Shown here: piece by piece, positions 2,473 to 5,071 of the stretch | Layout: every line of letters begins with the position of its first letter | How positions within the stretch are numbered: position 1 is the stretch's first letter | Assembly: GCF_030503875.2 (NCBI RefSeq) | Contig: NZ_CP129968.2 | Span: 3,250,001 to 3,314,000 of the forward strand | Direction: 5' to 3' | DNA from: Marivirga arenosa | GTDB lineage: Bacteria; Bacteroidota; Bacteroidia; Cytophagales; Cyclobacteriaceae | DNA: 64,000 nucleotides | Program-made: the position numbers and the translations under genes | Notes under the pieces: generated by a model | Database searches by the model: none | Told to the model about the DNA's origin: nothing | The model's input: the letters and a program-made list of their open reading frames with translations, nothing else

Positions 2473-3384
2473 TTGCTCAACCTTATTAGAACCAATTTTA
2501 AGGAATACGTGGCTTTCCTTAAAAACCCAGAACCGAACCCAAACAAAAGTGCAGATGACTCTGAAAGTAAATGGAGTAAGCTGTTTATTTTTTTGTTAAT
2601 AGATGCGATAATAATTTCCCCTATTCTATTTCTTTTATACATATTAGAAGAATTTAGTAATATCGATTTAAATAACCATTCTGTTTCAAACATTGCCAAT
2701 GAATATGGGATTATTATACTCATATTAGCAGGTGGTATTCTATCCCCTCTTATAGAAGAAATTATTTTTAGGCTTCCGCTTCATTATAAAAGAAACTATT
2801 TATTTAAATTTATTGGTCTTTTTATTGGGAAAGAGAGAGTTGAAAATTTTTGGTTAAAGCATTTCAGAATATTTTTTTACCTTTTTGTAATAGCGTTCGG
2901 TTTTGTCCATATTTTTAATTTTCAAGAAAAATCCATTTTGATATGGATTCTATTACCCTTGCTTGTAGCCCCTCAAATTATTGGTGGTACAATATTAGGA
3001 TACTTAAGAATAAAACTAGGTTTCGGATGGGCTTTTCTACATCATGCAATTTATAATACTGTTTTAACAATTCTTGCTTTTTCTACACACTTAAATCAGG
3101 AAGTTTCTATTAACAACTCAGATTTTAAACTTAATATAGAAGTCGCAGAAAACAAGTACAACAACGAATCAAAAGTTGAAGATACTTCTGATTTTGATTT
3201 TAAAAATATTGTTAACACGCAATATGCAAGCTATAATTATATAGCTAATAGACTAGGTTGGGAAAAGATTGACAAAAAAGAGAACTATAAATATTACAAT
3301 ATCTCTTTGGAGATGAAAAACTTAGATTTAAATAGTGATTCTATTCTTCAGTATCATCTCATTAAAATAATTAAAAATCAATAA
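2473..3384 (+). CDS. CPBP-family intramembrane protease, TTG start
   Basis: 303-residue membrane protein with several hydrophobic helices. It carries the CPBP (Abi/CAAX-protease-like) motifs: EEIIFR with the paired glutamates (residues about 94-99), a later FVHIFNF histidine, and HHAIYN near the C-terminal end of the core. These residues form the active site in Rce1-like intramembrane proteases. A C-terminal soluble tail of ~90 residues follows. The start must be TTG (or ATT at 2470), because a stop lies at 2464-2466 and no ATG occurs before the first membrane segments. Its 3' end overlaps the convergent dnaX tau reading frame by 7 nt. The substrate is unknown. Confidence 0.85.
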   Translation: MLNLIRTNFKEYVAFLKNPEPNPNKSADDSESKWSKLFIFLLIDAIIISPILFLLYILEEFSNIDLNNHSVSNIANEYGIIILILAGGILSPLIEEIIFRLPLHYKRNYLFKFIGLFIGKERVENFWLKHFRIFFYLFVIAFGFVHIFNFQEKSILIWILLPLLVAPQIIGGTILGYLRIKLGFGWAFLHHAIYNTVLTILAFSTHLNQEVSINNSDFKLNIEVAENKYNNESKVEDTSDFDFKNIVNTQYASYNYIANRLGWEKIDKKENYKYYNISLEMKNLDLNSDSILQYHLIKIIKNQ

Positions 3385-3980
3385 TCAGGATCCAAGCCGA
3401 AAGTATCTCGCAATTTACCAAGAAGAGGATTTTCCTTCATCATAGCATCAAATTTCTCCTTTGGAGTGTATGGCCTTTCTGCTGCCTTCTCGATATTCAC
3501 ATGATGTTGCAATTGAATTTCCTGATTTTGAAATTTAGCTCGAATAAAGTTTAGAAAATCAGCCTTTATTTTTTCAATACCATCAACCTCAACGGGATTT
3601 GATAATTCAACCGTAATCATCTGTTCTTCTAAGTGAATGGAGTTTTTTAATGAGTTCTCAACTAAAGGTCCTACTTTATTTTGCTCAACGAACTGATTTA
3701 CTACTTTCTTTAACTCCTCTGCATTTAAATCTAGCTTCTGAACAGTTGATGTACTCATTTCTTCAGATGATTCTTCAGAAGAAGTACCAACTATTGGATT
3801 AGGTTTTTTCTCTTCAGTTTTTTTCTGAACGGACTCTCCTGGCTTTGGAATTGAAGGAGATGACTTTAATGGCTTATTCTGTCTGGCCTTAGCAGCCATC
3901 TGGTCAGCAATGGAAGTCTTTTTTACTGAAGATGAGTCATCTTCAGAATCAGACTGTTCACTTAGCTTACTTTTTTTTTT
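3378..3980 (-). CDS. dnaX: tau-specific C-terminal region of DnaX, reached by -1 slippage
   Basis: From the A10 run, the -1 frame continues K-K-K-S-K-L-S-E-Q-S-D without a stop to 3378. It encodes a charged, flexible Ser/Glu/Lys/Pro linker and then a folded domain (from about LDLNAEELKK) ending in GLDPDY. The only in-frame ATG (3899) lies inside the linker, so independent translation is unlikely, and the segment fits the tau C-terminal extension that contacts polymerase alpha. Either programmed -1 frameshifting or transcript slippage makes both gamma and tau, or one A is missing from the sequence. The stop overlaps the convergent CPBP gene. Confidence 0.8.
   Translation of the reverse strand, partial: KKKSKLSEQSDSEDDSSSVKKTSIADQMAAKARQNKPLKSSPSIPKPGESVQKKTEEKKPNPIVGTSSEESSEEMSTSTVQKLDLNAEELKKVVNQFVEQNKVGPLVENSLKNSIHLEEQMITVELSNPVEVDGIEKIKADFLNFIRAKFQNQEIQLQHHVNIEKAAERPYTPKEKFDAMMKENPLLGKLRDTFGLDPDY
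3926..3946 (-). other. palindrome/hairpin downstream of the dnaX slippery run
   Basis: A 21-nt perfect inverted repeat: arms CTGAAGATG and CATCTTCAG around a 3-nt loop (the arms can be written as 10 nt around one base). It starts 24 nt downstream of the A10 run on the coding strand, inside the tau linker. That spacing is longer than the 5-9 nt usual for frameshift-stimulating hairpins, so a role in recoding is only a possibility. Confidence 0.5.
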
Positions 3981-5071
3981 AGAACTTCTTCCTGCTGCTT
4001 CGCTAAATCAATAGCACTATTGAGCTTTGCTAACTTCATCAAAGCTAACTCAACTGCCAATCTTTGATTTTTACTCGCTTTATAGGATTGATCCGTTTGA
4101 TTAAGAATCTGTAAACCAGATAGCAAGAATGAAGCGTCAACATTCTTCGCTTGCTCCTGATATTGCGCTTTTACTTGATCCGAAACTTCTAATAACTCTA
4201 GAGTAGAGGCATCTTTGCAAACTAAAAGGTCTCTAAAATGAGAAGCCAGTCCATTTACAAAATTATGACCATCAAAGCCATTCTTCAGGATTTCGTCAAA
4301 CAGTAATAATGCTTCAGGAATTTTTTCACCATTTAAAGCGTCCGTCACCTTGAAATAATAATCATAATCTAAAATATGAAGATTATCAATGGTAGTTTGA
4401 TAAGTGATTTTATTATCAGGCGAAAAGGTAACAATTAAATCAAAAATAGAAAGTGCATCACGTAAAGCTCCGTCTGCCTTTTGCGCAATTAAGTGCAAAG
4501 CAGCATCTTCTGCTTCTATGCCTTCTCTATCAGCAATTTCCTTCAAATGATCTGATATATCAGATACTTTTATTCTATTAAAATCATAGATCTGACATCT
4601 GGAAAGAATAGTTGGGATTACCTTATGCTTTTCCGTAGTAGCCAGAATAAAAATTGCATAAGACGGTGGCTCTTCCAATGTTTTCAAGAATGCATTAAAT
4701 GCTGCATTTGAAAGCATGTGAACCTCATCTATAATATATACTTTATATTTTCCGTGCTGAGGGGGTACTCTTACCTTATCAATAAGATTTCTAACATCAT
4801 CCACGGAATTATTAGAAGCTGCATCTAGCTCATAGATATTTAAGGAAGAAGAACCCTCCATATTATCTACATCAAAATCGTTGATCAGTCTGGCCAAAAT
4901 TCGAGCGCAGGTAGTTTTACCTACCCCTCTAGGACCACAAAAAAGTAGAGATTGCGCTAAATGATCATTATCAATAGCGTTTTTTAAAGTAGTAGTAATG
5001 TGTTTTTGTCCTACTACTTCATCAAATCCTTTTGGTCTATACTTCCTTGCTGATACAACAAAATTTTCCAT
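3962..5071 (-). CDS. dnaX: DNA polymerase III subunit gamma/tau, zero-frame (gamma-like) product
   Basis: Clamp-loader ATPase of the replisome. Zero-frame translation gives 369 residues: Walker A GPRGVGKT (46-53), Walker B VYIIDEVHM (111-119), the sensor/arginine-finger region with ILSRCQ (R158), then the AAA+ lid and the collar domain. Translation ends KKKVS-stop just after a run of ten A (3971-3980 on the plus strand, T10). A -1 shift in that run joins the frame to the C-terminal ORF down to 3378, predicting a 564-residue tau. The four-cysteine zinc module usually found between Walker A and ELDAASNN is missing: only about 18 residues without Cys lie there. queD is upstream, 84 nt away on the same strand. 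Confidence 0.93.
   Translation of the reverse strand: MENFVVSARKYRPKGFDEVVGQKHITTTLKNAIDNDHLAQSLLFCGPRGVGKTTCARILARLINDFDVDNMEGSSSLNIYELDAASNNSVDDVRNLIDKVRVPPQHGKYKVYIIDEVHMLSNAAFNAFLKTLEEPPSYAIFILATTEKHKVIPTILSRCQIYDFNRIKVSDISDHLKEIADREGIEAEDAALHLIAQKADGALRDALSIFDLIVTFSPDNKITYQTTIDNLHILDYDYYFKVTDALNGEKIPEALLLFDEILKNGFDGHNFVNGLASHFRDLLVCKDASTLELLEVSDQVKAQYQEQAKNVDASFLLSGLQILNQTDQSYKASKNQRLAVELALMKLAKLNSAIDLAKQQEEVLKKKVS
3971..3980 (-). other. dnaX: A10 slippery run in dnaX (frame-change site)
   Basis: Ten consecutive A on the coding strand, read CTA AAA AAA AAA GTA AGC TAA in the zero frame and AAA AAA AAA AGT AAG in the -1 frame. The zero-frame stop comes 6 nt after the run. An AGGA sequence sits 9 nt upstream, similar in position to the stimulatory Shine-Dalgarno-like element of E. 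coli dnaX. In Thermus thermophilus an A9 run in dnaX causes transcript slippage (established). Confidence 0.8.

Follow-up and report, generated by a model that had tools for sequence, protein, structure and literature searches.

The stretch analysed here, called the window, comprises 64,000 nucleotides (nt) of Marivirga arenosa (assembly GCF_030503875.2, contig NZ_CP129968.2, positions 3,250,001 to 3,314,000). On its minus strand it carries dnaX, the gene for the gamma and tau subunits of the clamp loader, in which the gamma part and the tau part are separated by a -1 frame change at a run of ten A. Tau and gamma set the number of polymerases held by the replisome. In genes of this type the supply of a core replication subunit hinges on slippage, either in transcription or in translation, and a naive annotation would call such a dnaX truncated. 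The features of the locus, in window coordinates, are as follows.

3378..5071, minus strand: dnaX, the whole gene as recoded, tau of 564 amino acids (aa) (sequence reading, list of open reading frames (ORFs), NCBIfam)
3962..5071, minus strand: 0-frame ORF, gamma-like product of 369 aa with AAA+ ATPase, lid and domain III (ORF list, Pfam, NCBIfam, solved chains)
3971..3980, minus strand: A10 slip run, T10 on the plus strand (sequence reading, Marivirga comparison)
3962..3964, minus strand: 0-frame TAA, the gamma stop, 6 nt past the run (sequence reading)
3967..3969, minus strand: stop codon (TAA) of the third (+1) frame, 1 nt past the run, which would end A9 or A12 transcripts as gamma
3378..4007, minus strand: open region of the -1 frame, tau linker and C-terminal domain (NCBIfam, tau profile, pN/pS)
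3381..3725, minus strand: tau C-terminal domain, the last 115 codons, better conserved and with a confident predicted fold
3990..3993, minus strand: AGGA, similar to a Shine-Dalgarno (SD) sequence, ending 9 nt before the run, without conservation and with a putative role only
3926..3946, minus strand: predicted hairpin CUGAAGAUG-ACU-CAUCUUCAG, 9 bp, 24 nt past the run (folding prediction)

The 0 frame starts at the ATG at 5071, passes through the AAA+ ATPase, the lid and domain III (Pfam, NCBIfam) and then reaches the A10, across which it reads GAA GAA GTT CTA AAA AAA AAA GTA AGC TAA in mRNA sense. Between about 4007 and the stop codon at 3378-3380 the -1 frame is uninterrupted, and it contains a variable linker followed by the better conserved C-terminal domain. 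The original prediction had described a dnaX split by a -1 frame change at an A10, with the clamp-loader frame stopping 6 nt after the run, an AGGA 9 nt before it, and products of 369 residues without and 564 residues with the shift; all these particulars are exact.

Both ORFs match the NCBIfam gamma/tau model PRK14971, the 0-frame ORF over positions 1-373 of 614 and the second ORF over positions 467-612 of 614, and are thus pieces of one gamma/tau protein. Both matches lie under the whole-protein cut-off of the model, as is expected for parts of a gene. Solved E. coli tau/gamma chains match the 0-frame protein at E about 1e-53. A sequence comparison of the tau C-part with solved chains gave no convincing relative (best E 0.11). 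With the predicted fold of the tau C-terminal domain, the Foldseek match to E. coli tau domain V is weak (rows 5fku_E and 2aya, E 0.085 and 0.18), and this domain is absent from the 50 VIA-align rows shown, in which other folds score equally well.

The M. arenosa genome (2 contigs, 99.95% complete) has 14 runs of A10/T10 or longer. In the 1.8-2.1 kb read around each of these, a sense-strand A10 within a frame of more than 200 codons is found only in dnaX and in one 212-codon frame; two further frames of more than 200 codons carry T12 or T10. The A10 in the 212-codon frame (L306, G000:C1:1420069-1420078) may be a second slip site or due to chance.

Conservation of the A run and of the split frame

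The exact A10, in the same phase, is present in 9/9 Marivirga genomes (the window and 8 others). The 0-frame stop 6 nt past the run and the third-frame stop 1 nt past it are likewise present in 9/9, and in the 8 others the -1 frame remains open after the run for 193-210 codons. The ratio of nonsynonymous to synonymous differences per site (pN/pS) in ten Marivirga pairs is 0.18-0.65 over the whole -1 part and 0.03-0.14 over the gamma part, values that are rough for distant pairs since pS is high (0.58-0.83 over the whole -1 part). In the five pairs examined further, pN/pS is 0.11-0.21 in the last 115 codons and 0.30-0.67 in the linker.

A wider survey covered 266 distinct dnaX loci, which are what is left of 276 matching loci once 10 that are identical to another over the first 900 aligned bases have been set aside. 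They consist of the best-scoring matches and of others picked by hand for spread, and are a non-random sample. The run was taken as the longest A run in the approximately 130 codons after residue 335, which in a few loci (L283, L290) lies far downstream. An A10 is found in 206 loci, an A9 in 21, an A11 in 19 and an A12 in one; 11 loci have A6 or A7, and 8 have no run of six or more. A run of A9 or longer is therefore present in 247/266 loci, compared to 425/4880 (about 9%) of codon-shuffled tau linkers. In the usable genes (n=244, defined below), AAG accounts for 32% of the Lys codons located upstream, thus the run is not forced by lysine coding. The gamma/tau recoding at the run that had been predicted is well supported by this comparison.

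Usable loci are those with a run of at least 9 and at least 100 codons of the tau part (n=244). The 22 loci outside the layout counts comprise 19 in which the run is below 9, of which 16 have a continuous frame, two have an A7 and a split frame and one is truncated where its contig ends, and three others that are truncated in this way too; loci L322-L331 were added later and stand outside the 266 and 244. Of the usable loci, 153 have the tau part in the -1 frame, 83 have it in the 0 frame and 8 have it in the +1 frame, such that 161/244 are split and 83/244 have tau fused in one frame. A profile made from 33 tau C-parts, 32 of which come from the surveyed A-run loci or near copies, matches the assigned tau frame and no other in 244/244. 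On a FastTree tree of the 244 loci, parsimony gives 40 layout changes (support values and shuffled labels not considered). The cores of L056/L057 and of L182/L255 are 99.7% and 97.7% identical, yet the members of each pair differ by one A and in layout; a member of either pair could be a base-call error.

The +1 layout is displayed by L237, L057, L138, L199, L255, L263, L267 and L278, with runs of A9-A12. In all 8 the -1 frame has a stop 0-11 nt past the run, thus a -1 ribosomal shift there cannot yield tau. In genus g59, two distinct genomes (L237, L322) have the A10, tau in the +1 frame and a -1-frame TAA directly after the run.

Relatives with a continuous frame and no run, which the original prediction had named as evidence against recoding, do exist in the wider sample, where a continuous tau frame with a run below 9 is found in 16/266 loci; none of these is a Marivirga, where 9/9 are split. 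In some lineages the A run has thus disappeared or never existed. In an evenly drawn class sample, the open frame is shorter than 470 codons in 42/147 matches, by a hand count in which at least 3 are cut or partial and frames were unchecked individually. The dnaX of record L100, titled Rickettsiales bacterium NP5, is Cytophagales-like, carries an A10 and has the 24 upstream bases of Marinoscillum (L103); the record is probably mislabelled.

Stop codons next to the run

Ribosomes that shift by -1 read in the 0 and -1 frames only, whereas polymerase slippage yields all three. With slippage, a stop near the run is thus useful in both non-tau frames. In the -1 loci a third-frame stop is found within 12 nt of the run in 78%, compared to 35% at control positions of the same linkers. 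Statistical tests used one representative per single-linkage cluster, so that the big cluster with the window counts once. Among 28 representatives of the -1 loci (75%-identity clusters) 19 have the third-frame stop, against a null mean of 10.7 (p=6e-4); at 65% identity, which leaves 5 coarse clusters, the count is 3/5 and not significant (p=0.26). In loci with tau in the 0 frame, a +1-frame stop is present in 12/18 representatives against a null mean of 4.1 (p<=5e-5), and in 4/5 coarse clusters against 1.3 (p=0.013). In both non-tau frames, stops are commoner close to the run than at control positions.

Possible routes to tau

RNA-polymerase slippage at the A10, i.e., programmed transcriptional realignment as in Thermus, is proposed as the main route to tau, with a probability of roughly 0.75. 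The A10 would make RNA polymerase slip; transcripts with 10 A (or 9, or 12) would be translated to just past the run and give gamma, and those with one extra A (11, or 8, or 14) would continue in the -1 frame and give tau. The proposal draws on the anatomy of the gene and its conservation, the homology of the -1 frame to tau, the selection on the tau C-terminal part, and the stops in both non-tau frames. From these sequences we infer that the Marivirga polymerase slips at the run, that slippage outweighs the ribosome, and that both proteins are made. An additional share of ribosomal slipping on the A10 is quite possible.

A number of observations weigh against slippage, most of them in favor of a programmed -1 ribosomal frameshift on the A10 with tau as the shifted product, which we regard as an unlikely main route. 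The heptamer A_AAA_AAA, slippery for ribosomes, is present in the window, and the 0 frame CTA AAA AAA AAA lets tRNA-Lys re-pair in the -1 frame; the in-frame A_AAA_AAG is not present (CTA AAA AAA AAA GTA). The shift needed is exactly -1 in 153/161 split loci, 19 times more often than +1 (8 loci), as a -1 ribosomal shift predicts; slippage that mostly adds one A also predicts this excess. Two tRNA-Lys genes were found, both UUU (RF00005 and ARAGORN), in a list that is incomplete, as no tRNA-Ile turned up. This reading covered 30/34 RF00005 hits; the four left over comprise two that fall within loci already covered (Ser, Leu), an unread one of 87 nt and a weak one that ARAGORN does not call. As tRNA-Lys(UUU) is the sole Lys tRNA among those read, the argument from two tRNAs that was made for Thermus may not hold here. 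A pattern search for tRNA-Lys missed the window's own genome with the UUU pattern and matched 0/12 genomes with the CUU pattern, thus these patterns are unreliable. In the -1 loci, Glu codons at the first and second positions before the run favor GAG over GAA (30/46 vs 19.3 and 45/75 vs 28.7 expected); in loci with tau in the 0 frame no clear preference is displayed at these positions (4 vs 5.4 and 15 vs 10.4 expected). Slippage does not explain the GAG preference. In addition, the third-frame stops of the -1 loci lose significance at the coarsest clustering, and the 16 continuous loci mean that dnaX can do without the run in parts of the phylum.

The AGGA and the hairpin of the window would also suit a ribosomal shift. 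However an SD-like 4-mer at the place of the AGGA is found in just 2/9 Marivirga, and the AGGA is rejected there as a conserved stimulator. In the survey, SD-like 4-mers just upstream of the run are more frequent (72 in 244 usable loci) than at nine control offsets (4-17). Resampling of synonymous codons gives nearly as many, in the -1 loci a mean of 44.8 and a maximum of 58 against 54/153 observed, and in the loci with tau in the 0 frame 17.5 against 21/83; thus the amino acids, through Glu codons, explain most of the signal. For SD-like 5-mers the -1 loci have 21 against 13.8 (maximum 24), and those with tau in the 0 frame 5 against 5.9. According to PMC9976891, ribosomes of Bacteroidia are unable to recognise SD sequences.

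The hairpin of the window is strong when 70 or 60 nt are folded (z -3.1 and -2.5), and not over 40 nt (z +0.4). A usual -1 stimulator lies 5-9 nt downstream, and at 24 nt the hairpin is farther away. Among the other Marivirga, L011 has a z of -2.5 and the remaining 7 range from -1.15 to 1.34, and no consensus structure was found downstream of the run in the 9. In a random draw of 120/244 loci, downstream folding is about that of a control region located 90 nt farther downstream (z -0.47 vs -0.44; -9.7 vs -8.1 kcal/mol). Further points against the ribosome are the third-frame stops of the -1 loci, in a frame that -1 shifting never enters, the 8 loci in which such a shift at the run cannot give tau, and the shorter A7 with E. 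coli-like elements in the ribosomal-looking relative g15 (below).

The remaining explanations all have very low probabilities. A missing A, due to an error in sequencing or assembly or to a mutation of this strain only, is the least probable of all. Homopolymers are error-prone, and the pairs L056/L057 and L182/L255 are one A apart; however the A10, the stop and the -1 tau frame are common to 9/9 Marivirga and the layout is split in 161/244 loci. A sequencing error is thus rejected as the cause of the split, and with it the eleven A in the true genome that the original prediction had kept as an alternative. Slightly less remote, and still very improbable, is a second ORF that is a separate protein or a decaying fragment. 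In the ORF list the ATG at 3899 does open a 173-aa ORF in the -1 frame, but in the alignment its Met is replaced in all 8 of the other Marivirga, by Ile in 6 and by Leu in 2, coding reaches back as far as the run, pN/pS is 0.11-0.21 over the last 115 codons in the five pairs, and the two parts are fused in one frame in 83/244 relatives. Equally improbable is phase variation at the DNA level, in which the run would gain or lose an A in replication and toggle tau between cells. Polarity does differ between near relatives, in two pairs by a single A, but the run is exactly 10 in 9/9 Marivirga. Tau is a core replisome subunit, thus a tau-off state should be costly.

Beyond Marivirga, we somewhat favor the idea that across Bacteroidota the A run of dnaX is a switch neutral to polarity that selection for polymerase slippage has maintained, and that some lineages have swapped in a ribosomal cassette. 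The 0 frame of a genome may then hold either gamma or tau, or a +1 shift may be required, because slippage would supply all three mRNA frames. If so, sister species that are one A apart should make the same gamma:tau mixture.

A candidate for such a swap is genus g15, of the same family as the window. In 5/5 genomes searched (L026, L328, L329, L330, L331) it has an A7 and no A10. The junction is GA_AAA_AAG with a TAG or TAA directly behind it, and a GGAGG precedes the heptamer by 10 nt; the junction of L164, of the same genus, reads like L330. Hairpins are predicted a few nt downstream in 5/5, with a pairing that varies and energies of -4.7 to -15.3 kcal/mol (z -2.1 in L026 and -4.6 in L164). 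This looks like an E. coli-like cassette with the products swapped, tau arising by a -1 shift. As ribosomal signals are present and the long run is absent, the family appears to use ribosomal frameshifting where the long run is missing, and a swap between slippage and the ribosome within the window's family is likely. The family is in this respect a natural experiment, with A10 lineages, near-identical A10/A11 pairs and a genus with a ribosomal-looking cassette, such that both mechanisms can be compared in one clade.

Comparison with known dnaX genes

From its sequence, the dnaX of the window is a member of the two-ORF A10 type published in 2013. Antonov et al. (PMC3711429) list a two-ORF dnaX in 17 genes, nine of them with an A10, and propose transcriptional realignment for those nine; the word Marivirga is absent from the main text. 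The genes share two ORFs, a -1 frame change at the DNA level, a tau that needs recoding, and the A10 run. The account of this type in that paper covers only -1 cases, whereas the survey here also has layouts with tau in the 0 frame, +1 layouts and third-frame stops. The window dnaX is thus a clean example of a known arrangement. What the survey adds to it are the +1 layouts, the third-frame stops and the g15 contrast; the fresher parts are the +1 layouts and the mechanism swap. Among the matches listed from open-licence full texts (subscription papers and supplements are outside this scope), no title or abstract dealt with a +1-layout dnaX or with a slippage-to-ribosome swap in Bacteroidota.

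In Thermus thermophilus, dnaX uses transcriptional slippage on an A9 (PMC1088944, PMC5009743), and in the sections on dnaX of PMC3711429, PMC5009743 and PMC1088944 slippage is reported for Thermus alone. As described there, the likeness lies in a long A run late in the gene and in nearby stop codons in each frame other than that of tau. The unslipped product of Thermus is tau, from a single ORF, whereas that of Marivirga would be gamma, from one of two ORFs. Slippage is reported for Thermus and is deduced from sequence for Marivirga, and Thermus is described with two Lys tRNAs whereas only UUU is found among the tRNAs read in M. arenosa. By analogy, the window dnaX may work like that of Thermus, though the layout differs.

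The polarity is therefore reversed, the unshifted product being tau in E. coli and Thermus and gamma in Marivirga, a feature that is absent from the original prediction. A 2016 review (PMC5009743) notes the reversed type and, in that passage, that one nucleotide can swap the roles. An example given is the dnaX of Chlorobium phaeobacteroides, a reversed ribosomal type with E. coli-like signals (PMC5009743) and an A7 (PMC3711429). As presented there, it is similar to the window in having gamma in the 0 frame and tau by -1, and different in its A7 and E. coli-like signals; in these it is genus g15, and not the window, that resembles it.

In E. coli, as summarized in PMC3711429 and PMC5009743, gamma and tau also come from one gene with a -1 shift at an A run, but tau lies in the 0 frame and the site has A_AAA_AAG, an SD and a stem-loop. 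In Marivirga tau lies in the -1 frame, at an A10 without in-frame A_AAA_AAG and without a conserved SD or stem-loop. One surveyed locus, L233, has the in-frame A_AAA_AAG, tau in frame 0, a -1 stop 3 nt on and an SD-like GAGGA upstream, and by these motifs looks like a case of the E. coli polarity.

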